Below are positions 15,133 through 55,939 of a DNA stretch of 64,000 bases, piece after piece; within the stretch, counting starts at the first letter, position 1; each line of letters opens with the position of its first letter. Location: NCBI RefSeq assembly GCF_032118995.1, contig NC_092652.1, forward strand, positions 20,444,544-20,508,543, read 5' to 3'. The position numbers were made by a program, and so were the translations under genes. The DNA is from Asterias amurensis (lineage: Eukaryota; Echinodermata; Asteroidea; Forcipulatida; Asteriidae). The notes beneath the pieces were generated by a model that made no database searches, had not been told where the DNA came from, and saw nothing but the letters and a program-made list of their open reading frames with translations.

Positions 15133-15204
15133 TGTGATAATTTCTTTTTATCTGCAAAAAGAATATAAGTAGGGTTCTGCACTTAAGAATTAAAATTATT
15201 TTTC

Positions 15205-21452: not shown

Positions 21453-21833
21453 TTAAAGGAACACGTTGCCTTGGATCGGTCGAGTTGGTCTTTGAAAAGC
21501 GTGTGTAACCGTTTGTTATGAAATGCACATGGGTAAAAGGATGTTGTAAAAGTAGAATACAATGATCCACACAAACATGCCTCGAAATTGCACGGTTTTC
21601 CTTTTACCTCGTCGACTAACACGGTCGGCCATTTATGGGTTGACTCCCATAAATGGCCGACCGTGTTGGTTCGCACAATAAAAGGCAAACCTCGCAATTT
21701 CGAGGCAAACTTGTGTGGATCATTGTATTCTACTTTTAAAACATCTTTCTAACCATATGCATTTTATAAAAAACGGTTACAAACGCTTTTGTTTTGACCA
21801 ACTCGTCCGATCCAAGGCAACGTGTTCCTTTAA
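21453..21833. repeat. TTAA-flanked palindromic MITE, family B, full length
   Basis: TTAA, then AGGAACACGTTGCCTTGGAT; the right end is ATCCAAGGCAACGTGTTCCT, then TTAA. The arms extend to the centre (CCATAAATGGCCGACCGTGT), so almost the whole 381 bp is one inverted repeat. It lies downstream of PFDN5. Other members are at 61-201, 51454-51839 and 54894-55162. Confidence 0.9.
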
Positions 21834-23962: not shown

Positions 23963-26900
23963 ATGCCTGAGGAAAGTGTGAAAGTCGCTGTGCGAGTGCG
24001 GCCTTTTATATCCTTTTGAAGCGTAGTTTTTGTGTTGGGGTTGGTACGGGGAAAAAGAAAGTGGGGCTAGCGTAGCAGCGTGTCCGAGCTGTGGTTTCGT
24101 GGGGAGCTTTACCGGGGGAGACGACTGGCGATGCTCGGTCAATGCTGAGGGAAGATGGGATGGGATCATGTGGACGATGTTGACCAGAGTTGGGGGTGGG
24201 GGATTTATAGTTGAAAGGGCGGTAGTTTTGTCATTGTCACAATTTTAATAACATTTATCAGATTCAGAGATGAGTCTTTTTGACTTTTTGACAATGTATC
24301 AAAATCATCATGATGAAAATGATTTGTTTGAAAATGTTTTCAAAATTAAACTATGCAAGAACAGTCATATTGCAATATTGGTGAGATTTTAGTTATAACA
24401 TAGAGCAAGGGTTAAAAAAAGTTATGTTATAAACTCAACATTATTAACTAGATTTAGAACTAAGCATGCCAAGGAAGGCCAAGGGGAGAAGTCGGTTAAA
24501 ATAAATCCTTGATTTTCTAATGTAATGGCTGAATTAATCCAATATTTTAGAAACTAGGGTGTTACAAAATAATTTTAATTAATGAGTGTACCCCATCATT
24601 TTTCTTTAAAATTTAATAATACTACTACAGTATTACTAACTATAGTTACAAAAAAAACTGCTAAGTTCAAAGGTAACAAACTTAAGAAAAAAAAACAATT
24701 ATAAGACTACAGAACAGGCAAACAATAAGACTGCCCCTAAATATTTCCCTTAATTTTGGTAAATTTTTGTCACAAACTTTTGAAAATCATGACAAAATAA
24801 GTCATTTTGGGGTGTAGGGTGGTCTTGCTAAGTGCCATTTTACTTCCTCAGGGCATGAGGTGAGTCCCAGCTGCGCAATGATTTTTTTGGTGTAATTTTA
24901 AATATGAATAATCGTCATTTTAAAAAGTCCTACATCCATTAACACATCTAACAAAAATTAAGGCATCGTCCCCCCACTATATAAATTATAGTGAAAGTTG
25001 GAAATGAAAATGTGGTACTTCACTTAGAAAATTAGCAGTCGTAATTGGATTTTTTTCCAGACAGTAGTCTTATAATGCAGGTCATGTTTGAAACAAAAGA
25101 TGTGTGTTGTGTTTGTTGTTGTTGTTTGTGTTTACCTTAACCTTTCACACAATGGCCGCGAATCTGCTCGTGGTGCCCAGCTGATTATTGGAATGAATGG
25201 CACCACCACAACAATCCAGAATCCAGCGGCCGTCGACGAGGAACCGAAAAAGTTTGACTTTGATTATAGCTACTGGTCACATGATGGCTTTGAGAATAAG
25301 AATGAACTGTTGGTCCCGACTTCTCCAAAGTACGATGATCAGGTATGGAATGTCACCATTATTCATAGTTCCATTAACTTGGCCCCCTTGCTCCTTCCTT
25401 GTTTTTAAAATAAACTTAACAATTTTCCTGGTAGTTTTTCCCCCCCCCCAAAAAAAAAAAAAAAATTTCACTCTCATAATGTGACTTTGTGTAGTTGAAA
25501 CCTAATTCAATGTCCCTTTGAGGCATGCAAATTAGAAATAAGAGTTCCAGTCAATTGTAAAAATTGTGTTATTTTCAGCCATGCAAAATCGGCATTCAAT
25601 TCAGATGCAACTAGAGATATCCCTGCGAAAAGCTGACTGGGAAGTTGAATCCTGTTCAAATGGATTGTTCAATTGAATTGTGTTTTTAATTGTTACCCTC
25701 AACATAGAAGAAGAAGTGCTTTAACACATAGAGTGAAACTTAATGATTGTTTTGAGGAGCTTTCACTTTCGGGTGAAAAGGATTAACGCAGCTTGTTGAA
25801 AGGCAAATTATGCACAAAAAAGTGACCGGAAAACCTAGCCTAATTATTTAGTGCTGACATGTATAACTTGCCAAGAAGAAAACTTTAAAACGGTCAAATT
25901 TTTTGAGAGTTAAGGTGGGGGGGGGGGGTGATTTTAATAGAGTAAAGAAAAAGGAAAACAGAAGAAATGTCAAAAACAAATGTTAGTTATTTATTTTGCT
26001 CTTTTCCCCTAGAGCCCCCATCTGATAAGCATAAGAGAGATCAGAAATAAAAAATAGAGAACCAATTCATTAAAGCAACTGTTTCCTCTTTCAAATATCT
26101 TCAGTCAGTTTTAAAGTTGTTTTAAGTTCTTTAAGCGAGTGTTTTCCTTATCTTCATTTACCGCTACAGACTAAGGTGTTTAAAGATCTTGGAGTGGGCA
26201 TCTTACAAAATGCTTGGGATGGGTACAATTCATGCCTCTTCGCTTACGGACAAACCGGTTCAGGGAAGTCTTACTCCATCGTTGGCTATGGACCAAATAA
26301 AGGTAACATGCTCATCCAAAGACAATTTTTTTATAAAGTAGGCCTATTGAATAAGATTATTAAACAGAATCCAGAGTGCACACTTGAGCAGTTTACTATC
26401 AAAGTTCATTCCTTACTCTAGTCTACCAAAATCCAGCACCATGGTAAGTCATATGCCAAAACTATTGACTCTGATTATGGTAGTATGCCTGATCCAGTGT
26501 AAGGGGTATCACTCTTAGGTGGTTTCTTTCCCTGCCTTTCTCCTCTGTGGACACTGGTTCAAATCCCACCTCAGACCTAAGTCTTGCATGTGGATTGGGT
26601 TTTCAATCCCTACCTGATGGCGTGGGGGATTCTCCCCTTTGGAGTTTTTTCCCACATTCGAAAATTGAACTCTCCCTTCTCATTTACTATTCATCTTTTT
26701 TTTGCCGCTAATTGTGACCTGTTGGGTTGTGCTGCTAATTGTGCAGCTGGATTTGAAAGGGTTATGTTTGGGACATAGTAAGGAAGAACATTAAAAACAA
26801 TTTCTTTGCGTGAAATTGTTTTACTCATTTTCAAAGACTACAGCACCTCAGAGCAAGAGTTTTTTTAAGGAAAGCTTTCAACCATCATTATCTTTTAAAT

Positions 26901-29900
26901 GTGTGAGATATAAATCTGTGGACTTTGGTGTTATGTGTTGTACAAAAAGTACCCAAACCCTTAAAATAATACAGATGGTAATTTGTTCTACTCCCATCAG
27001 GTGTTGTGCCGATGTTCTGCGACAGACTCTTTGTGGAGATAAACGAGAAGAGATCCTCCGGGACCAAGGCGGAGTACGAGGTCATGTTTAGTATGCTGGA
27101 GATCTATAATGAACAGGTGCGCGATCTCCTGAACCCGGCAGGTAACAAGAAAGGAGGGCTCCGGGTTAGAGAGCATCCAAAGAAGGGATTCTACGGTGAG
27201 TAGTCTCGGGTAATTATCACTCGATTGTTGCAAAATCACTCATTGTCTTATAGATCAGGTAGTTTTAAGCTATAATGAATAGTGGTGAATTATTATACCT
27301 CTATTGATACTACATGTGTAGATCACTAATTGTCTATCAATTTGGGTAGTTTTGAGTTTCTGAGTACTTAGTCTTTAGTAAATTGTCACTCATTTTGTGT
27401 CTTAACCACTCACTATCACTCAATTACATATAAGGTAGTTTTTAGTAAGTACTCTTGAGCTATAACATTAACAACTCATTTGTACTAAATCACTCATTGT
27501 CACTCAATTCAGGTGGATTTCAGTTATGAGTAGTCAAGTTTTTAGGCCTATCTCTCACTATCTGTGTAAATTTTGAGTTATTATGAGTAGTCTTGAGTTA
27601 TTATCACTCATTTGTTACGAATATCACTCAGTTCAGGAAATTTGTTGAGGGTTTCTTTGCTTATTTCAAAGTTTGTTTAATGTCTTTATTTATTGCTTTA
27701 GTTTACTCGATACTCTGTACCTTTGTTCTTTGTACATTTTGTGTTGTTTTGGGTTATGTTTTTTTAACCACTTCAGAAAGTCTGAAAACATTTCCCCTGT
27801 CCAATATGCAGCGTTGTTGTTCATCAGAACTCTTTTAAGTAGTTGTTTTTCTTTTAATATATTATTGTCACAATGAAATATTGACTTGAAAAAGGGTAAG
27901 ACAATAAAGGCTCTCATAGATTTGATGTTGTGTCAGAAAATATGAGAAGGCACTCACCAATACTTGCAGAACCTCATGAGCCATGGCTGATAATCCGCCA
28001 TGAGAGAGGTTACATTGTGACTCATGATCTTTAATTGATTGATTTGTTTCTTACCAACCAAATATAGTTGAACAACTTCGTAATGTGGCCGTGGAGAGCT
28101 ATCAACACATTGAAGATCGCATGGACGAAGGAACGCGCAACCGCACGGTGGCAGCAACACAGATGAACGCAACGAGTAGTCGTGCCCACACCATCGTCGG
28201 GATAACATTCACCCAGAAATCAGTCAACGATGCCGGTCAAGAGATGGCAAAGGTCGCAGTGGTGAACCTGGTAGACTTGGCTGGAAGGTGAGTAGAGGAA
28301 TCGGAGCAAGCAAAATTTTGACGCGAAAACACTCACTCACTTCACTCACTCAGTCAACCCAAGTTGTCGCGTTGCCGCATGTTTGAGTCAGGCTCGATGT
28401 ATGACATGCCACACAACTCTATCCTGCATACAGCTGATTAGCTCCTCCTTGTTGTTTACTCCTGTGCTTCAATCAGGGTCTTGAGCATGGTCTTGTAAAG
28501 GGTCTCCCGGGGCCGCGCCTGGCGTGAGTGGGGTCCCACACAATGACTTCATTGGCTGTCATTGGTTGACTCAAAAAGGTCAACAGCAAATGTGTTAATG
28601 TGAGGGTATTTCTTTGTGGTTTTGTTAAATATTTTAAGCTCCAATTAATGAATTGCTATTAAAGGGCTACATTTTATTTGGTGATTACCCTTAAAATCAA
28701 TGGCAATAAAAACTTTTGGTTAGAAGCCTACAAAGCATTTTGAGAAACATTTCAAAAACAAATAAATGTGGTTATTTAAGAAGATTTATGTTTTCGTATT
28801 CATTATTGGAGACACCTGTAATATTTCTTGCTTTCTTATTGGTCAGTGAGCGCGCTGAGTCCACTGGGGCCACTGGTGACCGCCTGAAGGAAGGAGCGGC
28901 CATCAACCAATCACTGTCCTCGCTCGGTAACGTCATCTCTGCATTGGCTGACCGATCCAAGGGCAAAAAGGTCAAAGGTCAGTAAAGCTCTGGAGTTTTT
29001 GCAATGTCACCTTAGGTCTTGATTGAAGCTTTGCATGGTGGGGATATAAATAGGAAGAAACTATAAATAGTCAACTTGCGAGTGCAATCATGTGTAATTC
29101 TCTTTTGTTGGAGTGTTGGCTCTGAAAAGAGCTGTTGTTGTCTCAACGTTTCGGACAGTATACTTTGCTCGTCTTCAGGATGTTGTTTCTTTCTCCTGAA
29201 AACAAGCAGAGGATACTGTATACTGTTCAAAACATTGAGTCCACACCGGCTCTTTTTTTACTGTATACAGTGCTTAGACATAACAATGGTTTGGTAAAAC
29301 AAAAGTTAATAGGTTTTGGTTTGATTTTCTAATTGTAGTTCCATTCCGTGACTCTGTACTGACCAAGCTCCTGAAGAATGCCTTGGGTGGTAACAGTAAG
29401 ACCATCATGATCGCTGCCCTCAGTCCTGCTGATATCAACTACGAAGAGACTCTCTCAACACTGAGATATGGTAAGTCTGTTGTAAAGCAGTTTGTTAACT
29501 GAGACCATATCCGAATTGGCGGCTACGACTACGGCTACAGCTGGATCGCAGCGTCGTCATGCATTGCAGTATAGGACGCCCTTAGCAACACCCCTGGCAA
29601 CGGTCGTAGCCGCAGCCGTAGCCACCAATTCGGACACGGCCTGATAGTCCTTGGCAACTATTTACAATAACATTTCAAAAGGGTTACCTTGTTTCAGCCC
29701 TTGGAGTAGGCGGCAACTGCCCCTGGAAGAACAAATTAAAATTGTAGCCCACCTTGCAAATTGCATACAAAAAAAAATGTCACTTTACATCATGTGAAAG
29801 AAAATGCAAAGCGAATTATGCCAAGTAAGGGAAATTTTTAAATTGTGACACAGAGAATTTATCTGCGTCAGATTTTGCTTGAGTATGAAGCAGGCTTTAC

Positions 29901-32900
29901 TTCAAAGTGCTAGGTGTTAAGAGGTGGTAAGGTTTACTTATAGTTTTGCAGACTTTTTAGGTGTAAAGAAAAATAAAAAAAACAGAAATAGAATCTAACT
30001 CTTAGAACACTTTCGATACTTTTGTTGCAGCTGATCGTGCCAAGCAGATCAAGACATCTGCCGTGGTAAATGAAGATCCCACTGAGAAACTCATCCGTGA
30101 GTTGAAAGAGGAGAACGCTCGATTGATGGACGCCATCAAGAAGGGAGGTTTAGTCATGGTAGGGGATGATGATGACAGGAAGGAAGGGGTCACTGACGAA
30201 GGTAGGTTGACGAACAGACTGCCCGATCATCATTGATTTAAAAATAGAAATCTTATTATTATTAATTATGTTCAGTGATGAGATAGTTCAGACTTTTATC
30301 TGAATTCAGACTTTTTAAAGTCTATCTCTGGTAATCAAGATCCTGTATTTTTCTCCAAATTAAATAAGTCAGGGCTTGAATCTGCTTTTCTAGCACCCCA
30401 TGAGGATACTGTTCACAAAAGCTCCTTGGAACCTATAACTCAAGGTGTGATCAAAAGGAGGAATTTCTATCATTTGAATGTACCTCGTTAGATCTGGATA
30501 CTAGTTTCAGACTTGGTTGTCAGCAATAACTCTCATCCCTGTATGTTTCTAGTAATGAAACCAGGGGTCTCTTATAAGTGAACTTAATTACTGAAGCTAT
30601 CTACCAGCCAGAAGCCAATCAATCTGAAACTGTCATGTAAACTTTTGGGGATCACACCCAAGCAGGCCTGGAATTTCATCTTTGATCGGGACTAAGGCCG
30701 TTCTCATTTTGTAAAGGGACACTTCCATTGCAAAATCTTAAAATCTATGGGAAACTTTGGAAGGGGCACCAAGGCCAAGATCAGGGCAACAGAGGCCGTA
30801 GCCTCCATGTGATTCCAGGCCTGCCTAAGTGTATGTTACAACCTGGGAAGCGGCAGTACTGGGATGGCTAGCTTTCATTCGACTTAGTGAGTTTTTTTCT
30901 GTCTTCCCTACAGAGCGTGCCGCTATCCGGAAGGAGCTTGAAGAAGAAATGCAAGCTCGTCTAGAAGCGACAGAAAGAGAGCTGGGGTACATGAAAGAAA
31001 GCTGGGAGGAGAAGTTGAGCAAAGAGAAGGTAATGTGAATGTAAATGCTTGGCGTACTAATTGGGTGGGATTCGAACACAAGACCCCAACATTTTAAGAG
31101 CAGAGAGCAGTTCCCAAACTGGTTGTCATTGGGCCATGCAATAAATTGACTGGCCTTTTGACTGTGTTCTATCTCTGTGACATTTGATACTCCTTATCAT
31201 CAGCTGTGTCTCGGTCTCAATGCACAGTGGACAGTATTATTATTTTTTCTAGGGGAAATCTGTTCTTGGCGACACAATTTATTTTGCTCAGAGTGCTGGA
31301 CACAAATTTTGATTCCTGGACATGCCTGCCCAGCACTGCGCTGCCCTGACAGCACACCTTGCTTGGCAATTAAGACTGATCACATTTTAGATCTATTCCT
31401 TAAAATACAACGCTTGGCTCTGGCACACAGAAGAGTTCATAAGTTGAACTTACAAGTGACCTTTTCTATTTTTGATTTGTCAGGGTGGTGAGGATGATGG
31501 TGAGCGAGCCAAGAAAGAAGCCAAGAAGACCACGCCCCATCTTTACAATCTAAACCAGGACACTCAGCTGAGTGGAATGATAGTCTTCCTACTCAATCCG
31601 GGGAGCTATAAAGTAGGAAACAACAAGGCCGAGTCTACTCCTGAGATCTTGCTGAATGGATTGAGGTAAGCAGATAATACACAGGGGGTTAATTTCACAG
31701 TGCCTTTAAGCTGCTCTTTTGTGTGACTTGCAAGACTCACTTTGACTCAATTTCACTCTCATATAACATTAAGCTGTTCTTTTTTGTGACTCGCCAAGAC
31801 AAGAATAACTCACTCTCACTCGCACACAACTACTCACTGTTTGCTTGACTCTCTTTCTCTCTGTACTCAGCATCCAGAAGGAGCACGCAGTCGTAGTGAA
31901 CGAGAACGGAAAGGTGTTCCTGGAGAAGGCCAGCTCCGATGCTAAGCTATTGGTGAATGGGGACACAGTCATTGGCAAGATTGAACTGGACCATAATGAC
32001 AGGTAACGACAACTTATTTCAGTTAAGAAAAGCTAATGGATTGATGTCACTCATTAGGACCTAAAATAGTTTATAATTTACCAAAATGTAGTCTCCTGAC
32101 GATGACCAGGGGAAGCTGGTGAAAAGAATTAGACCAATTAAGAACTCTCTCTCCGTAGTAGTGAAGCTAATACTGATGACACTAAAAGCAAAAGTAGTAG
32201 TCCTGGCTGATTTTCTACCTTCCGCCCAGGTAGTATTTAAAAAGCAGCACAATTCTTTATTGAAGCTGAAAAGTTTCACGAGTGCAAAAATCTACTCAGC
32301 GGTAGTAGATTATATATAGCAAGACAGTTCTCTAAAAGAATAAAATCTATCTGGCAAGTAGATACACTCATGGTGTTACAACAAACCAAATAACAAAAAT
32401 CTTTCTTTTTAAAAGTTTTGGGCTTTTTAAGAGCTTGTCAAATGCTCATTAGAAAGTTTTCCTGAAATTCATTGTTTTTTTTCTTTAATTAAAAGTAACT
32501 CTTCACCAGTGATTGATAATCCCTGGAACAAAATTATAAAGTTTCTTACAACTCTTTACTTTGTTTGGTGTGTTTTTTTCAGGATAATGTTCGGCAGTAA
32601 CCACTTGTACGTATTCCAACATCCAGCTATGTACAAAGCTAAGCCGACTAACTATGTGGGTGTGGTCACTTATGACTCCGCCCAAGAGGAGATTGCCAAG
32701 AAGAACGGCTTTGATATGACCTCCAATAAAAGCAAAGGTAAACTCCTCATGTTTCTTTAAAAAAAAAACTCAAGTGGAGAAAAAGTCTTTTAAATACTAA
32801 CTATTTTGAAAAGCATTGATTTATAAAGATCCATTGTGATGTGATGGTACTATTTTTAAACAAACTACTGGATAAACCCAAGTTTTCGGAAATGTGTGCA

Positions 32901-35900
32901 TGGGAAATTACCCGGGCCCAATTTTATAGAGCTGCTTATAATGCAGAAAATACTTCTTAACATGATGGGCAGCAGACCAGTCACAAATGGTACATGGAAC
33001 ATGGTTTTTGGGCGGGTAACCAGCTTTCTAGTTAAAATATTTTTGTTGTGGTTAGCTACTTTTTGTGCTTACAAGCAGCTCTAGTCTCCTAGTGTTCCAA
33101 AATTCGCTATTTGAAAAATCGAAACCACACATATCACCTGCTGGATCCCCAGCGGCTGCTTACTAAGCAGAAAATGTAATTTAGGTTTTCCTGATCTGTC
33201 TAAACTTTCCTCCTTGTGCAGATGATCTTTTACTCCAAGAGGACCTAGTTGAGTTGATTCCAGCCGTTGAGGAGGCCAATGCGATCAGTGAAGAGCTTGA
33301 CCAGAAATGCAAGTTTGAGATCGTCGTCATGTCGGCCAAAGCACGCGGCTTAGCTCACGGCCGCACAGAGGTATGATGAACACCAGTAATGCACTTTCAT
33401 CAGCAAACAGGGAGAAGCTGAATTAGTTGTGTAGACATGATCTGTGTATTTTCCAAAGAAATGAGCTTTCCAATTTGCATATCTTTCTACTTTTCATCAA
33501 CAAATATTCTGCTCCATTCTTTTTGAGAAATCAGTTTGAATGAAAACAAGATTGTTCATGTACCCGCCTGTAAAACTTTCTTTGGCATTCATCTATATTT
33601 TCCTCTTCCTTGCATCCTTTAAGGTGTGTGCCAAGCTCCGTAATCTAGAGAAGGATCTTGAATACATCTGGTCCAGGGATAAGTTCGTAAGGCGTAAATA
33701 CCTGATGCAGGAGATGTACCAGAACTACACTGAGGGAGAAGAATGGACCCTGCCTGATGTAAGTACAGTATGCTGGGATGGGGTACTTGGTAGTTTGTAC
33801 ACCTGAGGGGAATGGCATCTAAGGCGTGGCAGGAATGGCACCTAAGAGTGTGGATATTAAACCCATGGGCCCTGTTGGAGTTGAATTGAGCTAGATGATT
33901 TTTGGATGATTTATACATGTGTTCTGCAACGACTACCGTTCTTCTCAGAATAAAAAGTTGGTGGCCTATCAGAGTACAAAGTAGTGCGGTAATCTTCAAA
34001 TTTTTGAAGCAGCACTATAGGAAGAAGAAAAAAGTTGGTGGCCTATAAAAAATGCTTTTGAGTAATACAATGGATGATTTTGGGGTAAATTTACAAACAA
34101 ATATATAGAGCCAAAAGAAGCCAAAAAACCTTGGTCTGGCAGCAGATATGCAGGCAATATTGTTTACCTATGAGGTTGTCCGTCTTGCCCTTGCCATGAC
34201 AGATGGTGCCCTTACAAATGTCCCTGTGTGTATTTCATTTGAAAATGGGAGTGGTATTTACTCCAGATGTATTAAACTTTGCGTCACACCCAGTGGGATT
34301 GAAATGTGGAGATTACTACAATATAATAATGTCTTCTTTTAATTGCGTTGTCTAATAGGAGAAGAATCCATTTACAGAGCCCATTGACAAGGAAGTATTG
34401 ATCGGTACAGTCAACGTTTACATGCAGAGTCTAGCTTACCTGGTAAGAATCTCTTAGCACAACCTCATTTCTAGGGGTGGTCATTAAGACTAGGGGTTTG
34501 CCTTTGTGTCTCTGGAAGTGGCTGCTGACTGGCAGTCGCACCTTGTAAACCCCAGGTGTAACATAAGTTGGTCTCATAATCCAGAAACAGAATCCATCAT
34601 TCTCTTGAAGACGATCAGAGCATACTTATCGAAACGTTGAGTCGTTTAACCACTGGTTCTTTTCAAAACCAACACTGCTCAAAAGAGATATCCACATGTA
34701 TTACCTTTCTGTTAGTTATACTTTCACCATGCAAAGCTTCAAATCCTACAAACATAGCTTTGCTTGTCCTGTTGAAAACACGCAATAAGCACTTTGATAC
34801 ACATCTAGGGGTATGATGAAATGCTTTGTCAAAACGTCCATTACTTATAGTGTACTGTTGGGGTATTTAATCTTACATTCTTAATCCTTTCTTAAAGGGA
34901 AGGTACACGTTTGGGAATTGTCAAAGACCAGTCTTCTCACTTGGTGTATCCCATCATAAGCATAAAATAACAAACCTGTGAAAATTTGGGCTTAATCGGT
35001 CATCGAAGTTGCGAGAAAATTATGAAAGAAAAAACACCCTTGTGCGGCGAATTTGTGTGCCTTCAGATAGGAATAAAAGACTTCTAGCTAGAAGTCTTTT
35101 ATTATTTTAGTGAGAAATTACCTCTTTCTTTAAAACTACGTTACTTCAGAGGGAGTCGTATCCCACAATGTTTTAAACTATCAACAGCTCTCCAATGCTC
35201 ATTACCAAGTCAGTTTTTAAGTTAATATTTGTTTTGAGTAACTACCAAACGTGTACCTTCCCTTTAATCCAGATTGAATCCAAGGAGCAGCTTGATATCA
35301 CAGATTACCGCGGCAAGGAACAAGGCCTCCTAGACGTGGAGCTTGTCCCATGCGACAAGAAAGGAAACGAGATTAAAGAGGACGATGACCTCTTCATTGA
35401 TCATCCCAACGAGCTGGTGGGAAGAGATTTGAATTTTGTGGTGAAGATTAACGGCGCTCTGGGGATCCCAAGTAGATACACTGTGAGTTGATGAGGAGCT
35501 TCATTTTTTTGATGTGTATGGGCAAAAACGGTGTAAACTTAGATCATGAATAAGTAAATCGGGAACAACTAATTGGTAAAAATTTGTCCACTAGCTTTGG
35601 ATTGACCTGTAATGTTTATGTAAATATTATCATGGTTATAACTGATCACAATAACAATCCGCCTTGTTTTCTGTCATACACCCCTTTCTGTTCTGTCTTT
35701 TCATGTATGTCTGCCATTTTGTCTGTCCGTAGGTTGTGGAACAAAAGCTGCGGCTTCACCCCGGACCTAGATGTTGCCATTTGTTTAATGTTCAGTGGAT
35801 ATCACTTTTGTAAAATGTACATGTACTGTCAATTTGTACTATTCATTTTGAATTATTGTGATTTATGCAACATTGAATAAAGGTATATATCTTGACAAAT

Positions 35901-38900
35901 GGCAGCCGTTTTCTTTCTCTATTACAGAGCGTACATTGCAAGTATAATGTATTTTTGGACACGGAGATGATCGACACCAGCCAAATCCAGGGTACCTGCA
36001 ATCCTAACTTTAAACACAAGAAGAAATTCAACTTTACAGTTGTCACATCCAATGTAAGTAAAATGTGTAGAAAATAGTATTGATAAAATAGTATTGATGA
36101 AATAGTATTGATAAAGTTTTGCATTTTGAGATTGCAGCTTTTTAAGGCATATTATGCAAATTATGTATCTGGTGGTTCCCAAAATTGTTGCATAATAACA
36201 GTTGATGTTTCAAAGCACAGATGCGTTTCAAGTAAAACAATTTAAAGTGTCAAATGAAGGTGCTACTTGAATGTTGGCGAGTAGCTTGTTGCGAAGTGTT
36301 GGAGCTATGACCAAAAAAGCATGATCAGCATAGCGTGTCATGGTCCCAGGGAAAGCTGGAAATTAGCTGTGGAAGAAGAGCCAAGGCGAAGGATGTAGGG
36401 AAAATAAAAGTGGTTTCTAATTTTTAAGGTTTTTTTTAGTTCATCTAGACAGCTTGTGCAATATCTGCCATACCTTATTTTATAGGTGTAGTTTTTTTGT
36501 TTAAGGTAGCACAATTGATTTATCAGTATTCATGGTATATGGGTAAATGGTGTCACATGTGCATTGCTTATACAAACAATTGCGGTGAAGGAAACCAGTA
36601 TTTCTGGTCCATTGATCGACCCCTTGCACGCGTGTGACACACGGCGACTGATGCCACGCTTCCCATGTTGGTGGGCAAGTTAGGTTTACGTGTGTTAACG
36701 CCGCGTCGCCTAAAATGCGCACTACACTGCATAACCCACAGCATAGTCTATGCATAGAGTTATACATGAAAACGCACAGTGAAATTGCCCACCAGTATGG
36801 CGCATTCAAGATTTTTCTGATGATGACGTCAGGTGAAATGGGTCAACACATGCAAGTTAGGTATCTGAGGGGTATGGTCGCATGAAGTTGTCGCATAGAA
36901 TGTAAGCAAAATAAAAGCTATTTGAATTCTATGTTTGTTGTCCATTTACAGTTGGTGCAATATCTACTGCACGATCACTTGGTAATCCAGATCTGGGGAA
37001 CACAGAAAGCGTCTCAAGACGGCAAGAAAACCAAGAAGAATACTAAAGAGATCATGCTGGCTGAAGCCATCAACAAGGCACGGGATGTCAACGGCTCTGG
37101 TGTGAATCTGGTACGGTTCTACTCACACTAATTAACTTTATTTCTTTTCTATTAAATAACAATAATAATAATAATAAATAATGCTTATAAAGCGCCTTAC
37201 ATTCATGACTGGACCCCAAGGATCTGTACACATTAAAAATAGCTCCAAACAAGAGGCAGAAAATAACCAAAGAGCAAAAAAAAGATTTTACATGTTTATT
37301 TTACTATGTACAATGTGTATATGAGTTGAGGCATTGCATGGTGAGGTATCAATATTTATTTGGTTTGCAGTAACACCATGTGTGTGTCTACTTGCCAAGG
37401 GGTGGATTTCACAAAGGTAGTCCTAACTTAGGACTAGTCCTAGGCAATGCTAAGAGATAGGACCAGTCCTAAGTTAGGATGAGTTACTGGTCCTAACTTA
37501 GGACCAGTCCTATCTCTTAGCATTGCCTAGGACTAGTCCTAAGTTAGGACTACCTTTGTGAAATCCACCCAAGTAGAGTTTGTTATTCAGAGAATTGTCT
37601 TGCTATTATGTACAATATTCACTTTGTTTTCGAACTAGGAACTAATTGCTTGTTTTATTCATAAAAATTCTTTTGTTTGGGTGCTCCGTTACAGATGGAC
37701 AGTGGTTCTCTGGATGTCAATGTATTGTTCAATAGTGTATGATACATTTTTGATGACCATTATTCATTCTTTATCTGTAAGATTGTTTGAACAGAAATAA
37801 AACAAAGAAGCAAACAAAGATGTTGGGCAATGCAGATGATGTACGAATACCTTGCCTTTTATGTAGGCAAGTCGCCAGACACACAAGGCCTGAAGGCCTC
37901 TTCAAGGTGTGGGCTACAAATGTTTTTTTCCAAAGGCCGTTGCCATCTACTCGTGGGGCTGAAACAGGGTTACCTCTTTTGCAGTCCATACAGATGTAGG
38001 CTTGGGTATCATCAGTCCGAAGCCTGGCCGGTATGAGCACAGGCATGCTTCGTTTTTGAAAGGGCAAAGGCACCAAGGCATTTTCTCCTTGATAAAGGGC
38101 ACCCTATGAGGAGTTTATAAATTTCTCCTGGAGCATTTAAAGGGCACCAAGGCAATATCCAGGGGGCATGGAGGCAAACTTTGTCTATGTAATCTCTTTA
38201 TGCCAGCATACTTTTTGCCGTTTTTTCAACATATAGCTCTCAATATTTAGATCTTAGTTTCATACCTTTCTGTCAATGGTGACTCTCAAATTATAAACAT
38301 GGTTGTTATTTTAGTCTTTTATTCAAATGTTGATTGACTTTAATTAAGGTGTGGATGTCATTCTCTGTGTTTCATTGTTTGTGTTTACAGACCCTAGATG
38401 CAGAGACGAAAGCCAAAAACATGTTCCAGTTCGCCATCATGAAGAAAAGGCAAGAGAGAATGGAAGCCAAGATTGTAAGTTCACAACAGACCGCGCAAAT
38501 CTTGCACATTAGAAAGTCAAATCAAACGTTTGTTTTTTCCATACCTAAATCTTGTCAGTAATTTGTTGCTTTTTATTGAATCATTGTGTACCTAATGTAT
38601 CATACATGTATCTAATACTGAATTGCTTTTCAAATTCGACATAAATGTGCATTATTGTATTGAACTGATTGAATGACAGCATTGAAATGAAAGAAGCTAT
38701 TGAATGAAAATGAAGAATGAGTATTATATTATTGTATTCCAATCTTCTGCAACCCTTTCTGATCAAGACACTGCCGTTTGAAACTTAGTTTGTCTTTTAC
38801 ATCATACCCATGAAATGCCTTGACTACTTTTTTTGTAACGCTTGTCTACTATTTTTACATTGCCTTTACACTGTCCATGTATTTTGTGTTAACTTTTTTG

Positions 38901-40739
38901 CCCATACTTGCAGGTATTTGCAGAAATTTCAAATAATGTTTTAGCTTTAAAGGATGGTTTATTTAAATTTGTCTGCCCCTTGGAAACCACTTTAAAAGAA
39001 AGCCTGTGTAATGATGATACATATGCAGTTTTCAATTTAATTGTCATTTTCGTAACTTTTTCTCACTTAGATGTTCTATATCTTTAAGTTTTTTCTTCAT
39101 AAAGCCTGGTTCATTCTTCACGCAAATTGCGCAAGTGAAGCGAATTTCCCGGTATCACCTACTTCGCTCTGCATTTCCTTTTGCGTGAACCGGGCTTTAA
39201 TGCTCTGTCAAAATTTTGATGCTTGATTGCTTGGTACCCCCATGGGGCATTTATGTCTGAATTGGGTGCTTGGAATCTCATGAGTTCTTTAGGAGAGGTA
39301 CAATGTACTTCCGATAGGAAAGTAGTGTGTTGGTATAGGAACATACAGGTACCCTCTACCCCCAAATCAGGCATGGTTATTTCAAAAGGCTGATTGTTAA
39401 AGTTTTGACTTCTTTCTCAGTTCAGCCTCCATACTCTTCTTTAAATTTACTTGTATATTAATTGGTAATTTTACTTACTTTTCTGAATTTAATGTATAGA
39501 ATTGTGTAACAGTGTGGGAATGATGTTCTATTTGATTGAATTTTTGAAGGTGGATAACAAAGTCAGTACAGTGAACTTGTCCAGTACATCTACTGAGATT
39601 TTCTATTGTTATGCAGTTATCTTTTAGCCTTTTTGCTCTTTTTTTTTGTTTTTATTTTTTTATAATTTTTTTTTTTAAAGTGGTTTTATAATTGTATTCT
39701 CTGTATTATGTTTTTCCTTTTACCTAACTGTACTTTTTTTAAATTTTAATTTAAGCGTTTTGAGGTCGAGCAGAAGGCGCTATATAAATATCACCTTATC
39801 TTGTAGGCTATCTTTTAATCTTTATGCTCCTTTTGCTTTTGTTTGTTGGTTTTTTTTCTAAGTGGTTTTATAATTGTATTCTCTGTATTATGTGGTGCTT
39901 TTTACCTAACTTTATTTTTTTTTCTGGTAATTTTTTTCTGGTTATTTTTATTATCGGCCTAGCATAAGGAGGTATATAATAGCACCTTAACCTTTTTATT
40001 AATATTATTAAATATTATTACTATTATTATCACTGCATTGCCATTGACACAACACTGTGTGTATTTTTTTAACCGACGCAGGCTCAGTTCCGTAAGGTAG
40101 TTGCCACCGCTGAGAAGCACAATAAGGCTCGAGTGGAGACTATGGTCTTGAAGACGGTGCTCAATGCACAGAACGCCAAGATGGCTGACATGGCAATCGC
40201 TCGCATCCCAAAGGATGAGGCCGGAGGAAATCTAGGTGAGTGGTAGCACTTTGTCAAACATCTTTAAATTGATGAGATTTTTTGTGTGTGAAATGGTAAA
40301 CATTGTGTGAAGATAACATATTTTAAATGTTCTTTTATTTTTGTATGAACTGCAAGAACCACAGTTGAAATTAATTATAAGAGTTAAGGTTCTGATCATG
40401 TCAAAAAGCCCCACACTGCTGTTCATGAAAAAAATTAATACGCCAGTGGACTGCCAGAAATTCTGCTGGACCTTGACAGTTTGCCGATCTACAGACAATC
40501 CTACGCAAAAAAAACATTTTTGAAATTGTTCCATTAAAATAAAAAAGTACATCCCATGACTTGTTGCTTTGTTTCCAGCAAATCCATCACAACTGTTTTC
40601 ATTTTGTGTACAATTTTTACAAACTGTAGCTAAGGTCCTGTACTATATATAATCATTAAACCATTATTCTATATTTTGCCTTTTTTCATGCATTTTAGGA
40701 GAAGAGACTCAGAAATCTGGAGTTTGTGTCGTCATGTGA
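23963..40739 (+). CDS. KIF28: Kinesin-3 family motor, KIF28/KLP-6 type, with C-terminal CaaX box
   Basis: Microtubule plus-end motor. 21 exons join in frame to 981 residues: 23963-24007, 25151-25342, 26170-26302, 27001-27195, 28068-28287, 28847-28977, 29339-29470, 30031-30201, 30914-31029, 31484-31665, 31871-32002, 32583-32737, 33222-33370, 33624-33758, 34359-34442, 35273-35482, 35928-36053, 36952-37110, 38391-38474, 40082-40235, 40699-40739. Visible motifs: [10 protein letters not shown] at the start, P-loop GQTGSGKS (106-113), switch I NATSSRAH (222-229) and switch II DLAGSER (258-264), all intact. A coiled-coil neck follows the motor, then an FHA domain at about 465-560, a long beta-rich tail typical of this subfamily, and a charged helical end. 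The last four residues are CVVM, a prenylation-type CaaX box. The length fits KLP-6/KIF28P. Relatives act at mitochondria (vertebrate KLP6) or in cilia (worm KLP-6). Intron 1 is an AT-AC U12-type intron. Confidence 0.93.
24008..25150 (+). other. U12-type AT-AC intron in the kinesin gene
   Basis: After CGG CCT TTT (RPF) the donor is ATATCCTTTT, the exact AT-AC minor-intron consensus. The 3' end is TTTACCTTAACCTTTCACAC, with a near-perfect U12 branch point CCTTAAC 10 nt before the terminal AC. Joining here gives RPF|NGRES in phase 0, the expected kinesin motif RPFN. No usable GT donor follows the RPF codons before the in-frame stop. Confidence 0.9.
27190..27640 (+). repeat. Degenerate tandem array in kinesin intron 4
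   Basis: Words of the type GAGTAGTCTTGAGTTATTAT, CACTCATTTGTTA and AATCACTCATTGTC recur irregularly about every 60-110 bp. A related CTCACTCTCACTC-rich stretch occurs at 31770-31860. The units are too diverged to give a firm period. Confidence 0.5.
29130..29182 (-). repeat. Conserved hairpin module, inverted orientation
   Basis: On the minus strand: CCTGAAGACGAGCAAAGTAT then ACTGTCCGAAACGTTGAGAC. It is the same module as at 8770-8832, 34600-34740 and 43070-43215, here in a kinesin intron in antisense orientation. Confidence 0.55.
29501..29641. repeat. Palindromic element, family N
   Basis: Ends CATATCCGAATTGGCGGCTA and TAGCCACCAATTCGGACACG are inverted and continue into ACGACTACGGCTACAGCT. 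Two relatives are at 41831-41955 and 56469-56599. It lies in kinesin intron 7, a few tens of bases after the exon. Confidence 0.8.
30650..30830. repeat. Dispersed repeat, family H (longer copy)
   Basis: It is bounded by AAGCAGGCCTGGAATTTCAT and GTGATTCCAGGCCTGCC, which are inverted. Inside are GGGACACTTCCATTGCAAAA and GGGGCACCAAGGCC. The inverted ends suggest a DNA-element origin for this family. Confidence 0.55.
31193..31340. repeat. Dispersed intronic repeat (relative of 8085-8310)
   Basis: It contains CAATGCACAGTGGACAGTAT, GGGGAAATCTGTTCTTGGCG, TTTATTTTGCTCAGAGTGCT and GCCTGCCCAGCACTGCGCTG. A diverged copy lies in the coiled-coil gene. Confidence 0.35.
32090..32390 (+). repeat. Dispersed repeat, family J
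   Basis: It contains CTTCCGCCCAGGTAGTATTT, AAAATCTACTCAGCGGTAGT, ATCTATCTGGCAAGTAGATA and CACTCATGGTGTTACAACAA. It parallels the PFDN5 intron copy at 19940-20200. It starts CTCCTGACGATGACCAGGGG, reminiscent of the hairpin module found elsewhere. Confidence 0.5.
32918..33085. repeat. Inverted-repeat element, family K
   Basis: It runs from CCCAATTTTATAGAGCTGCT to GTGCTTACAAGCAGCTCTAG and includes GACCAGTCACAAATGGTACA and GCGGGTAACCAGC. The ends are inverted, and two relatives lie at 6531 and 17996. Confidence 0.7.
34600..34745 (+). repeat. Hairpin module with about 145-bp shared tail
   Basis: CTTGAAGACGATCAGAGCAT, then ACTTATCGAAACGTTGAGTC, then a body ending TTCACCATGCAAAGCTTC. The copy at 43070-43215 has the same order and spacing and ends TTCCACCGTGCAAAGTTGC. 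Confidence 0.6.
34892..35267. repeat. TTAA-flanked palindromic MITE, family A', full length
   Basis: TTAA (34892-34895) then AGGGAAGGTACACGTTTGGG; right end CCAAACGTGTACCTTCCCT then TTAA (35264-35267). The core is family A. Its right end lies five bases before the exon-16 acceptor and supplies the pyrimidine tract. Confidence 0.88.
37140..37265 (+). repeat. AAT microsatellite and LINE/SINE-type tail
   Basis: An (AAT)n-like run, AATAATAATAATAATAAA, precedes ATGCTTATAAAGCGCCTTAC and GGACCCCAAGGATCTGTACA. The phrase AAGCGCCTTA or its variants also appears at 39765, 43720 and 45830, suggesting a shared retroposon tail. Confidence 0.4.
37401..37569. repeat. Long near-perfect foldback element (about 80-bp arms)
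   Basis: The left arm begins GGTGGATTTCACAAAGGTAG and the right arm ends CTACCTTTGTGAAATCCACC. Within the arms TCCTAACTTAGGACTAGTCC repeats as nested small palindromes. The loop is only about 10 bases. It lies in kinesin intron 18. Confidence 0.9.
38045..38175. repeat. Dispersed repeat, family H
   Basis: TTGAAAGGGCAAAGGCACCA, GGGCACCCTATGAGGAG and CCAGGGGGCATGGAGGCAAA closely parallel the copy at 22195-22340. Confidence 0.6.
39100..39200. repeat. Short TIR element (AAGCCTGGTTCA ends)
   Basis: AAAGCCTGGTTCATTCTTCA at the left is mirrored by GCGTGAACCGGGCTTTAA at the right. The element at 52257-52731 has related termini (AAGCCCAGTTCATACTTCCT). Confidence 0.7.
39590..39995 (+). repeat. Two copies of a LINE-type 3' tail
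   Basis: TTATCTTTTAGCCTTTTTGC, then AAAGTGGTTTTATAATTGTA and TTCTCTGTATTATG, then CCTAACTGTACTTTTTTTA, occurs twice in tandem (about 39615-39790 and 39815-39985). The first ends GCGCTATATAAATATCACCT and the second GAGGTATATAATAGCACCTT, typical of non-LTR tails. It is directly upstream of kinesin exon 20. Confidence 0.55.
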
Positions 40740-41237: not shown

Positions 41238-41621
41238 TTAAAGGAACATTACAGAATTGGTTTTACTAGCAAAAAAATTGCTGGCAGTGTAATCACTTTA
41301 TGTAATCCACAATGTACATCAACTGACAAACCTGTAGAAGTTTGAGATCGATTGGCCATCTGGGTCACAAGAGAATAGTGAAAAACCGATTACAAATTTT
41401 TCATTGCATCGAAGGCAAAACAAAAATGAATAAAACGCTCATTGAGCGATAAACTCAAAATGCGAAATTAGATTATTTATTTCTCATCAAATATTAAATT
41501 TCAGACAAAAATATTTCAAGGGATGTTTTCTACTAGCATCATTAGTAGACTGTGTAAATTTTATGTAAATCTGTGATCTTCACGATTTCTGTTTCTTACC
41601 AATTCTGTAACGTTCCTTTAA
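41238..41621. repeat. TTAA-flanked palindromic MITE, family D, full length
   Basis: TTAA then AGGAACATTACAGAATTGGT; right end ACCAATTCTGTAACGTTCCT then TTAA. The interior includes GATCGATTGGCCATCTGGGT and AAAACGCTCATTGAGCG. It is 384 bp long, with partial copies at 13518-13690 and 20936-20980. Confidence 0.9.
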
Positions 41622-52400: not shown

Positions 52401-55400
52401 TAGAACCAGGCTGAGTGTAACTTTCTTTTTTACATATTCATTACAAAGTTTGCGACCTTTGGACCTTCTTTATTCCGTCTAGCTTTTAGCAGGAAAAGAA
52501 CACCTTACAAGTAGTTTCTCTGGGTATTTCTTGCTGTTTTTTGTTTCGTAGAGCATGGTTCTGGCAATGCTCCTAATGTAGTTTTCAAGAACTCTCTGTG
52601 AGTTTTGCTTTAATTGTGCAAACTGCAACGAATTGAGCACAGCTCAACTGTGGCAAAGTATTCGTTGAGAATTTGTGACATCAATATTCGTTTTGCATTC
52701 ACATTCGCAGGAAGTAGGAACCGGGCTTAACATGCTCCATTGTACAAGTCGAACTTACATGATACGCGTGAGTTGGTATGGTCCTAGTGATGTTCATGTT
52801 CTTGGCTGGTCTGGAACCGTAGCAACAGTGTTTATCAACGAAGGCCAAGATGGCTGCTCTCACAGCCTCCTCCCCTATTCCGTCATTGCTGTAATAAAAA
52901 GAGGAGAAATCTAAGCCAAGAAATTAAAAATCGATAACCATGATAATAACTTGGGAGATTGGAGCAGTTAAAGGAGGCCATCAGATGCGAGTAGGCATCA
53001 AGAGTCATGTTTTTTTACTTGCACACATCTCTATTTTTGTGCATATTTTGGCACCCACGGAGCACACAAACCGTCCACCGTCGGCAGCCGCACCCTTGTC
53101 TAGATGCTGAATAGGCTTTGACAAGAAGCTGAATAGATGTAGATGTAGATTTACTTACAATAACAATACTAAAAGTTGTTCTATTGTAATGCTTTATCAC
53201 ACCACTGGGGATGGGTGAATCAAAGTGTTCATTCATTGTGTTTTTAACAGAAAAGGCAGAGCAACTTTTGAAATTATGAGAACCATTTATGAAGCACCTC
53301 GTAATGGTTTACAAGGTGCTGCAGCGCAATCAGTAGCTACTGCCAGAAACACCAGGGCTAACTCCTCTCTCTTTGTGATAAGTTTCTTTTAGGTGCATCC
53401 CACAATAGAAAGGACCTTTGTCTGTACGTCCTATCCAAAGGATCAAGAAAGAATGGCCAAGTGTCTTGCTTACATGGTACAACAATTGCTTTTTGGGAGA
53501 CACCTCCCCTCATCCCAAAGTAAAAATCTTTAATCCACGCCTGGTCATGTGTATATTTTTAAAACCTTTTCCCTGCTAAAGAACCTCAATCAAATTGGAG
53601 GGATAAGGTGGTTATACTTACGAGTCAAATATTTGCTGTGGGCAACTGCTCTCTGTTGGAGGCTCATAGGCCGGTGGAGGAACGGGAGGCCCTGAAAGCA
53701 AAAGATAGTACCTAATGATAGTTAGGCAGATAATGTCTGCAACGACTACAGAACTAGGCAGCTAAACTTGTCTGTTGAGCCCTACCTAAAAGAACGACTA
53801 CGCCACACCTTGCTTAAAAGATCTTCACTGGCTGCCGATAAGGGAGAGGATTACCTTTAAGATCTTGGTATACAATGTATGAGTATAAATGGCTCAACCA
53901 CACAGCACCTGGCTATTTATCCATCCGCTGCCGCTTCCCATTTTGTTTTGTACATTTGGGGTGTGATCCCTGGCTACACATCAGTTACAGATTGGATGGT
54001 TTCTGACTTGTACCCCAAACACAAATATGGTGACTACCAACAATAAATCACCACTTCAAATCAGACGGCATGTATACAGGTACACCTGCCAATTTTGTAT
54101 GGTTAAAAGTTTATTCATAAATACCCCAAGCAGTTTATCTACTCCTATTGGTGGAGAGCGCGTCACGTGGGGGTGTTTAAACGGTTGATAATGACCAGTG
54201 TTTATGACCGGCTGGCTTCCGCGTGTCAGGCGCGCAAGATTATCACCCGGAACGCAATTCATAGCTTTAAGTAACAGCGCGTAATCTATTTCTAAGCGCG
54301 CATGTGTAATCTAATTCTAAGCGCGCGGGCGTACACACAACCCACGCGCACAGGGCAATTTGACCCTGCCGGCTTTAAACGGCCGTGTAAGAACTCGTCG
54401 CTACCCTTTTATTCCCTTATTATGACCAAAACAACTTTGGAGCCAACTGGCGAGAATATCCACCCGGACGTTCCATTGTGTAGCTGCACAGGCATGCACC
54501 ACCTACCGTGTTCAACTTCGTTTCACTTACAAAGAGGGACCAAACTATTGGAAAACATGCCTCGGAATCAACCTTTTTTGAATACCAACGAGGAGTGGTT
54601 TTTATCATGAGGTTATAAATGTAAGAAATTCTAATAGTAAAAGCCAAGAGTAACAGGAAATGTTAAGTGGAACGTGAACGTACCGCTGTTGAAAACTACT
54701 GTCTCATAGCCCGGTACGGGTTCCAACTCCCGAGGGTCAGGATTCGGTCCTCCTTCCTCCGTCGCGTTCTCATCGTCCTCTGGGTCGGAGTCCGGGATGG
54801 TATCCCAGGAATACGGGGGTGCGTCTGTAGATGCGGCTCCAGGCACCCATGCTCCTATCATAAGAAAAATTTTAATATTGTGAATGAGATCAGTTAAAGG
54901 GATGTTGCCTTGGATGAATCGGTCGAGTTGGTCAATGAAAAGCATTTGAAACCTTTTTTGTTATAAAATGCATGGTTAGAAAGATGTTTAAAAGTAGAAT
55001 ATAATAATCCACACTAATAATTAAATGCTTAAAGTTTGTGTGATTTTCCTTTTACTTTGGAAACTAAAACGGATGGCCATGTTGTGGAGTCAAAAATTGT
55101 ACTCCACAAATTGGAGTGTAGTGTTAGTTCAAAAAGGAAAACCATGCAACCTCGCTCTTAGTCTTATATAAGTAACTTTTTCTTCTAACTCAAAATCAAC
55201 ATGAAGAAATAGTTGTTTTAAATTTTGTTCAATATTAAAATAAGTTAAAAAGTTAATTTGTGTGAATTTTTTCAATAAACACTATTTTGGGTAGTCATAT
55301 TTAACACAGTTTTATTTTACCTGCTCCTGATGGTTGTGTAGGGGGAGGTGCCCCATAGCCGGGGGGTGGTTCTTGGCCCTGTGGCTGAGGTGCCCCATAT

Positions 55401-55939
55401 CCCTGTTGTTGGGGTGCCCCATAGCCCTGTTGGTGAGGTGCCCCGTAGCCCTGTTGGTGAGGTGCCCCATAGCCCTGTTGTTGGGGTGCCCCATATCCGT
55501 GTGGCTGTGGTGCCCCGTAGCTCTGCTGTTGGGGTGCCCCATAGCTCTGTTGTTGGGGCGCGCTATACCCTAGTGAAGGGGCACCTTGTTGAGCTGTCAA
55601 ACAATTAATATCAGTATCATCTAGCACAAAATTTCTTTGGCTTCTCACAATGAAATTCCTATTTTGAATAACTATAAATATTAATTAGAGTAATAAATAC
55701 AATAGTTAAGCAACTCAAATTAACTTCCTGCCTTCTTCTTCATCCAAGTATTCATGGTATGAATTAAAACGCACTGTGAGTTTGGTGCGCGCTGTCCACG
55801 ATTGAGCACAGGCAATCAAAATAAAAACTCATTTGTGCAGATTATGATGTACACTGCTGTGACTGTGGTGGTGCAGTTTAAAAAGCAGTTATTTTATTGT
55901 TATTTTTATCTTACCTGTTGTGAGTTGTGTGATAGGCAT
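46459..55939 (-). CDS. SSUH2: SSUH2 homologue, zinc-motif protein
   Basis: Twelve minus-strand exons join in frame to 489 residues: 55939-55915, 55593-55321, 54854-54684, 53691-53622, 52888-52759, 52125-51940, 50751-50689, 50225-50122, 49796-49704, 48962-48860, 47689-47585, 46605-46459 (stop TAA). The N-terminus (about 9-100) is a tandem YGAPQQQ-like repeat. Six CxxC motifs follow at 287-290, 298-301, 309-312, 331-334, 342-345 and 353-356, most in the CxxCxGxG form also used by DnaJ zinc domains. Family blocks include [50 protein letters not shown] and a Cys-rich end CCWGCNVL. Worm ssu-2 was found as a genetic suppressor and the vertebrate protein is linked to tooth formation; the biochemical role is not established. 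The ATG at 55939 is the first in frame before a GTAAGA donor and its exon is only 25 nt, so the start is the least certain part. It is convergent with the kinesin gene. Confidence 0.9.
46890..47265. repeat. TTAA-flanked palindromic MITE, family A, full length
   Basis: TTAA, AGGCAGTGGACACTATTGGT at the left and ACCAATAGTGTCCACTGCCT, TTAA at the right. It inserted in the last SSUH2 intron. The centre is GAGACCTCAAATTTAGAACT plus its complement. Confidence 0.9.
47832..48090 (+). repeat. tRNA-derived SINE, copy 2
   Basis: The head GTGATCCAGTGGTTAGACTG, B-box GGGTTCGAATCC and body GATAGATTGGCTGTTGCCAG, ATATCCCCTTGCGGGATGCC repeat the element at 11372-11580. It is better preserved in the B-box than copy 1. 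It lies in an SSUH2 intron. Confidence 0.8.
48219..48652 (+). repeat. Two tandem copies of a tRNA-like SINE unit
   Basis: Two units (48219-48335 and 48536-48652) share TTGGGAGACCACCAGCA, a 72-nt tRNA-like core (48241-48312 and 48557-48628) and the tail CAATTTTTCTTTGTTCAATC. The spacing is 316 bp. Each core has A-box TAGCTCAGTTGGTAGAGCGC and B-box GGTTCAAATCC, and a loop with GTT in the anticodon position. The intervening sequence (GGGTGTGATCCCTGGCTACA) also occurs at 53965-54000. Confidence 0.75.
48650..48830 (-). repeat. SINE/LINE-type fragment
   Basis: CGCAGGTACCCATTTATACC, ACACAAGTATCGTGACCAGG and CACTCTGCTGATCAAACACC resemble 3050-3150 (ATGACTGGGACTCCACCCCA, CACTCTGCTGAACAGAAACA). The minus strand gives a spurious GFEPTTSG peptide, a sign of a tRNA-like B-box. 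Confidence 0.45.
50888..51234. repeat. TTAA-flanked palindromic MITE, family A
   Basis: TTAA, AGGCAGTGGACACTATTGGT on the left; ACCAATAGTGTCCACTGCCT, TTAA on the right. It is slightly shorter than the 375-bp members because part of the centre is missing. It lies in an SSUH2 intron. Confidence 0.88.
51454..51839. repeat. Palindromic MITE, family B, right end truncated
   Basis: TTAA, AGGAACATGTTGCCTTGGAT at the left; the right arm stops at CAACTCGACCGATCCAA without the final AGGCAACGTGTTCCT. It directly abuts a duplicated piece of the neighbouring SSUH2 exon. Confidence 0.85.
52257..52731. repeat. TIR element in SSUH2 intron, composite
   Basis: Ends AAGCCCAGTTCATACTTCCT with GCGAAT and ATTCGCAGGAAGTAGGAACC with GGGCTT are inverted. 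The interior contains a further internal end (52395-52420, TCGCAGGAAGTAGAACCAGG), suggesting one element inserted in or recombined with another of the same family. Confidence 0.65.
53281..53470. repeat. Dispersed repeat fragment
   Basis: It contains AAGCACCTCGTAATGGTTTA, CAAGGTGCTGCAGCGCAATC and GGCCAAGTGTCTTGCTTACA. Similar words are at 45840-45960 (CAAGGTGCTGCTGCGCAATT) and 3075-3110. It is probably a retroposon remnant. Confidence 0.4.
54108..54632. repeat. Dispersed family M, long copy
   Basis: It starts TTCATAAATACCCCAAGCAG with CTACTCCTATTGGTGGAGAG and ends with ACCAACGAGGAGTGGTTTTT and ATCATGAGGTTATAAAT. The interior has AAGCGCGC repeats (54290-54330). The ends are only weakly complementary, so the class is unclear. 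A partial copy is at 44983-45200. Confidence 0.55.
54894..55162. repeat. Diverged palindromic MITE, family B, incomplete
   Basis: TTAA then AGGGATGTTGCCTTGGATGA, with GAAACCTTTTTTGTTATAAA and TAGAAAGATGTTTAAAAGTA. The centre is diverged and the right end is missing. It lies in SSUH2 intron 2. Confidence 0.7.
55372..55575 (-). repeat. In-frame 24-bp coding minisatellite in SSUH2 exon 2
   Basis: Eight or nine units encode [17 protein letters not shown] or YGAPQPHG variants. The DNA units keep TATGGGGCACCCCAACAACA with scattered third-base changes and no frameshift, so they expanded and are maintained as coding sequence. Confidence 0.9.

Follow-up and report, generated by a model that had tools for sequence, protein, structure and literature searches.

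A KIF28/KLP-6-type kinesin gene with a CaaX end

We analyzed a 64,000-nucleotide stretch of the Asterias amurensis genome (the window; positions 20444544-20508543 of contig NC_092652.1, here C5), which carries on its plus strand a kinesin gene whose coding sequence closes with a farnesylation-type CaaX box, CVVM. Our manual model, built from splice sites and alignment, has 21 exons between 23963 and 40739, with phases consistent throughout, and encodes 981 amino acids. When the protein was compared with PDB sequences by phmmer, kinesin-3 chains led the matches, and the top match was C. elegans KLP-6 (7wrg; 819 bits, residues 4-869), followed by KIF1A (430 bits) and KIF13B (358 bits); these scores set a full-length chain (KLP-6) against motor-only ones, and length explains part of the gap. 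Pfam assigned Kinesin (PF00225) at 342.8 bits and placed FHA (PF00498) and KIF1B (PF12423) above cut-off; of the 6 Pfam families with E of at most 0.1, none was a PH domain. The alignment to KLP-6 reaches residue 851, putting a MATH region directly after the MBS (the position of MATH in KLP-6 is from PMC9314371), and both proteins have the same order of motor, FHA, MBS and MATH region. Judged by its sequence, the gene is a KIF28/KLP-6-type kinesin-3, as a first-pass annotation made from the letters of the window had proposed.

That annotation had also read a last exon at 40699-40739 ending in CVVM and a stop, and the in-frame 21-exon model confirms it. The donor of exon 20, TAG|gtgagt, is in phase 1, the acceptor of exon 21 is cttttttcatgcattttag and the exon is exactly 40699-40739, so that Cys-aliphatic-aliphatic-Met sits at the very C-terminus. 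Shifting the acceptor AG 3 or 6 bases downstream leaves the CaaX the same, and retaining the last intron would end the protein in ...NLGEW-stop. The closest downstream AATAAA is at 41429, ~690 bases past the stop. CVVM is also the CaaX box of N-Ras, a known substrate of farnesyltransferase (FTase): the gel shift of N-Ras CVVM requires FTase in humanized yeast (PMC11152559), and a CVVM peptide has been crystallized in fungal FTase (PMC11121372). The proposed farnesylation-type box is thus borne out as a motif, and we consider it probable that the window kinesin is farnesylated.

To gauge chance, we counted candidate terminal exons at one chosen acceptor threshold. Across the 10 kb after exon 20, one of 48 in-phase candidates encodes a CaaX, and it is exon 21, the fourth met; across 134 kb, with both strands and three phases included, 26 of 3513 candidates carry a loose CaaX and 9 a tight one. 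Taken alone, the CVVM of the window gene is suggestive and no more than mildly significant. We rejected a single CaaX as proof, since 0.7 to 0.8% of candidate ends carry one, and evidence beyond chance therefore rests on two sister genes.

CaaX ends of two sister genes

Searching the genome (491.5 Mb in 23 contigs) with the FHA-to-MATH part of the window protein (349 aa), we obtained 17 matches with E no higher than 0.01: seven in the window gene, five on C16 (near 10.24 Mb), four on C3 (near 0.62 Mb) and a weak one on C11. A tail-only query returned three matches, all of them in the window gene, and did not pick up the sister genes. KLP-6 was the top PDB match of both the C16 and the C3 protein (839 and 664 bits), with KIF1A at 378 and 328 bits. 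Compared in pairs, the three genes and KLP-6 are 45-53% identical, and the duplications giving three KIF28-type genes therefore look old at this level of divergence; a tree of the three genes, KLP-6 and KIF1A had supports of 23-48, leaving the order unresolved, and was not used.

The models of both sister genes start after the first coding exon or exons, with the start of the C16 model set at 2532. For C16, spliced alignment of the window protein placed a last exon homologous to exon 20, whose frame reads on to ...VTSAACSLQ-stop, with AATAAA 18 bases behind. This alignment stopped at query residue 959 of 981, short of the CaaX, which therefore had no part in placing the C16 end. On C3, 19 exons in frame lead to either of two phase-0 last exons, with CSLM and CSVM ends. 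Since the CSLM exon came from a scan, it is weaker evidence than the C16 end; the acceptor of the CSVM exon is poor, with a pyrimidine fraction of 0.46. The two are possibly alternative last exons, which would give the C3 protein different farnesyl ends. We discarded as noise the first short pieces proposed by the spliced aligner for C16 and C3, as well as its end pieces on C3 (13313-13343 and 13704-13842 of the joined piece).

A shared context before the CaaX cysteine

All three KIF28-type proteins end in CaaX: CVVM in the window, CSLQ on C16 and CSLM or CSVM on C3. In the four candidate ends, the final three residues are preceded by SGVC, SAAC, SQVC and SRAC; counted from the cysteine, position -3 is Ser in all of them and position -1 is Val or Ala. 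Over 134 kb, both strands included, there are 9752 stops with seven open codons before them, 78 of which (0.8%) follow a CaaX; 6 follow a CaaX that also has Ser at -3 and a residue from the set AVILMF at -1, and 4 of these 6 are the KIF28-type ends, a count that describes and does not test, as the pattern was picked after the ends had been seen. The other two matches to the context are on the C3 minus strand at 8335 and on the window plus strand at 44130; the latter stop, outside the gene model, is preceded by SHFCCVS and matches the context at chance level.

These counts bear on the reading in which exon 21 is a wrong call or the motif an accident, leaving the protein unprenylated. Ends that code for a CaaX are no rarity in raw DNA, as the 78 stops show, and C. 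elegans KLP-6 ends without the motif. Against this, exon 21 has good splice sites and phase, and a CaaX recurs at the homology-placed C16 end and in both C3 candidates, with the residues at -3 and -1 matching. We regard an accident as very improbable.

Fansa and co-workers (PMC5512577) describe how the same two positions govern binding to the carrier PDE6delta: GRK1, with Ser at -3 and Met at -1, binds at 7.2 nM, and INPP5E (SSTIC) binds almost 100-fold tighter than Rheb (Lys at -3, Ser at -1; 445 nM). High-affinity cargo is released by ARL3 only and is enriched in cilia, according to the same source. Like the KIF28-type ends, INPP5E and GRK1 close with a CaaX whose cysteine has Ser at -3 and a hydrophobic -1 neighbor, and for INPP5E this high-affinity signal directs sorting into cilia. 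They are, however, enzymes with Ile or Met at -1, whereas the KIF28-type genes encode motors with Val or Ala there, and the likeness on our side is one of sequence.

A predicted farnesylated motor of the ciliary membrane

KLP-6 itself travels on the axonemes of cilia, with the polycystins LOV-1 and PKD-2 as its cargo (PMC12646758; PMC10945585), and in worm ciliated neurons the intraflagellar movement of the prenylated RAB-28 requires the PDE6D and ARL3 orthologues (PMC7043889). Together with the -3/-1 context, these two cases make a farnesylated motor of cilia more plausible to us than a tether to mitochondria. Our best reading, to which we give a probability of about 0.5, is that a KIF28/KLP-6-type kinesin-3 is farnesylated at its tail end and sorted to the ciliary membrane. 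For sorting through PDE6delta and ARL3 in particular, we would put the odds slightly short of even. Genome matches place the PDE6delta family at two loci and the prenyltransferase family at three.

The CVVM end would be farnesylated, then presumably trimmed and methylated. The tail has no second cysteine close to the box, so one lipid is expected, and a single lipid at the tail end would let the motor bind membrane reversibly and be taken up by PDE6delta. With Ser at -3 and a hydrophobic -1, the motor would be a high-affinity cargo, unloaded by ARL3 alone, in cilia. Once sorted there, it could attach through its tail to the ciliary membrane or to cargo such as polycystin channels, and crowding on the membrane could favor the dimerization that activates kinesin-3 motors. 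The farnesyl group would then be both an address for the motor and its coupling to the ciliary membrane; its roles in cargo binding and dimerization are speculative.

The first-pass annotation had taken the box as a direct tether to membranes, with mitochondria as the example, and this destination is now less supported than cilia. More generally, the farnesyl could hold the motor on a non-ciliary membrane (mitochondria, endoplasmic reticulum (ER) or endosomes), which would fit the presence of the CaaX in the window gene and has a precedent in the formin INF2, a cytoskeletal protein kept on the ER by its CaaX, as a review relates. One study, cited in the review PMC8077471, ties vertebrate KLP6/KIF28P to changes in mitochondrial shape and distribution; that review itself calls for more work on KLP6 and mitochondria, and another review notes that human KIF28P is classed as a pseudogene. 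The context points elsewhere, as cilium-enriched cargo has Ser at -3 together with a hydrophobic -1, whereas Rheb, a protein of endomembranes, carries Lys and Ser there (PMC5512577), and the best studied relative, KLP-6, is ciliary. We consider a general tether unlikely.

Alternatively, the farnesyl may serve to dock the motor on a partner protein, or to control its folded, inhibited state, instead of membrane binding or sorting. The farnesyl of CENP-E has been argued to act at microtubules or kinetochores (PMC3206815), and KLP-6 is strongly self-inhibited via its tail domains (PMC9314371). The conserved -3/-1 context would rather suit a carrier of membrane proteins (PMC5512577), which makes this role improbable in our estimate.

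Comparison with nematode KLP-6

Our cross-species comparison of tails covers C. elegans KLP-6. Its tail after the MATH region can be aligned with the window and C16 tails. Reading the deposited PDB chain toward its end with an X-extended query, we found that residues 919-928 are RSGSKKPKAK; we take the trailing GTKLL of the deposited chain as vector, because full-length KLP-6 has 928 residues (PMC10945585). The 349-aa query was also used to look for orthologues in other species, giving 31 pattern matches in prokaryote contigs and 5 in viral contigs, none confirmed in either set, as expected for prokaryote and virus collections.

Several points weigh against a farnesylated ciliary motor. KLP-6 has no CaaX at its end and no cysteine in residues 843-928, and since it is nonetheless ciliary, the tag is unnecessary for ciliary function in the nematode. 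The mitochondrial study of vertebrate KLP6/KIF28P points to another organelle. At -1, the Ala of the C16 end and of one C3 end fits the rule less well than Ile or Met, the scan that gave the C3 CSLM exon had 37 candidates, of which it was the 13th, and the context was chosen after the fact, a concern that its independent singling out in PMC5512577 answers in part.

We rejected a CaaX general to the KLP-6 family, as KLP-6 lacks it. Absence from orthologues was to count against the first-pass annotation, and the CaaX-less end of C. elegans KLP-6 does so in part, while both sister genes strengthen its reading. The tag was either lost in nematodes or arose elsewhere. A tentative broader view, which we hold with less than even confidence, is that the KIF28 branch has lipid-tagged ciliary motors, farnesylated at a conserved C-terminus, carried by PDE6delta as high-affinity cargo and unloaded by ARL3, with the tag lost or never present in nematodes.

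Relation to known farnesylated kinesins

Few kinesins were expected to carry a CaaX, CENP-E being one, and the literature supports this while offering a closer precedent. Kinesin-CaaX of T. brucei has a Ras-like CVIM end, is farnesylated and becomes more diffuse without the motif; it has, however, been reported from kinetoplastids only and does not group with known kinesin families (PMC3206815), whereas the window gene is a kinesin-3. CENP-E is farnesylated at a CaaX, as predicted here, yet is a kinesin-7 at kinetochores (PMC3206815). For a KIF21B variant (CFLT), which falls in a cluster of 9 sequences, farnesylation has likewise been predicted; this protein is a kinesin-4, and the basis is prediction with peptide-level evidence (PMC3188499). 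Farnesylated kinesins are thus already known. In the open-licence literature searched we found no report linking KIF28/KLP-6 with prenylation.

A kinesin-3 that has no PH domain needs a means of holding membrane, and a farnesyl tag in a cilium context, if true, would be one answer, serving targeting and membrane attachment together. How KLP-6 dimers form and unlock is left open in PMC10945585 and PMC12646758. C-terminal fluorescent tags, as in the KLP-6 structure paper, would mask a farnesyl end in species that have one.

Gene structure and other features of the window

Positions of the exons and of the C-terminal elements are collected in the table. Intron 1 has AT-AC ends and signals of the standard U12 type. 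CCTTAAC and CAC|AATGAG recur at the 3' end of the intron that lies at the homologous place of the C16 gene; the 5' end of this C16 intron was not found within the C16 DNA examined.

Table. Exons and C-terminal elements of the window kinesin gene, with the candidate last exons of the C3 gene. Positions are those of the window unless stated.
Feature	Position	Strand	Basis
Exon 1, start codon	23963..24007	+	gene model
Intron 1, AT-AC ends, U12-type signals (ATATCCTTT ... CCTTAAC ... CAC)	24008..25150	+	sequence
Exon 2, motor	25151..25342	+	gene model
Exon 3, motor, P-loop GQTGSGKS	26170..26302	+	gene model
Exon 4, motor	27001..27195	+	gene model
Exon 5, motor	28068..28287	+	gene model
Exon 6, motor	28847..28977	+	gene model
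Exon 7, motor	29339..29470	+	gene model
Exon 8, motor end and neck	30031..30201	+	gene model
Exon 9, coiled-coil region	30914..31029	+	alignment to KLP-6
Exon 10, up to and into FHA domain	31484..31665	+	model and Pfam
Exon 11, FHA	31871..32002	+	model and Pfam
Exon 12, FHA end and beyond	32583..32737	+	model and Pfam
Exon 13	33222..33370	+	gene model
Exon 14, KIF1B family match starts	33624..33758	+	model and Pfam
Exon 15	34359..34442	+	gene model
Exon 16, aligned to KLP-6 tail containing MATH domain	35273..35482	+	alignment
Exon 17, KLP-6 MATH region	35928..36053	+	alignment
Exon 18, KLP-6 MATH region end; alternative donor 37102, both phase 0	36952..37110	+	gene model
Exon 19, charged helix-like tail; homologous exon in C16 gene	38391..38474	+	model and homology
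Exon 20, tail homologous to C16 last exon and KLP-6 tail	40082..40235	+	model and homology
Exon 21, last coding exon, CaaX end	40699..40739	+	gene model
Codons S-G-V, positions -3, -2, -1 of CaaX cysteine; match high-affinity PDE6delta context	40716..40724	+	sequence; rule from PMC5512577
CaaX box CVVM	40725..40736	+	sequence
C3 candidate last exon, ...KKSQVCSLM-stop	17266-17325 of joined C3 piece (around C3:623000-632999)		found by scanning
C3 candidate last exon, ...GGSRACSVM-stop; AATAAA ~110 bases on	21563-21667 of joined C3 piece		

Contig C23 carries an intact COX1. Of five code tables tried on it, table 9 (echinoderm and flatworm) and the closely similar table 14 yield the conserved residues that are expected, reading AAA as Asn, AGA as Ser and ATA as Ile; with 22 further contigs present, this makes an echinoderm likely, perhaps a starfish. 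Elsewhere on the nuclear contig C5 there are two nearly full COX1 matches, at 658874-660214 and 675294-676634, ~16 kb apart, which probably stem from mitochondrial DNA that entered the nuclear genome, or else from an assembly artefact. Two further open reading frames of note lie on the minus strand of the window. The first, at 14683-15147, contains MGCAASEPAV... and, after it, a Pro/Gln-rich stretch; its MGCxxS resembles an N-terminal signal for myristoylation and palmitoylation. The second, at 55301-55684, has repeats that resemble the N-termini, rich in Gly, Tyr and Pro, of certain annexins or penta-EF-hand proteins.

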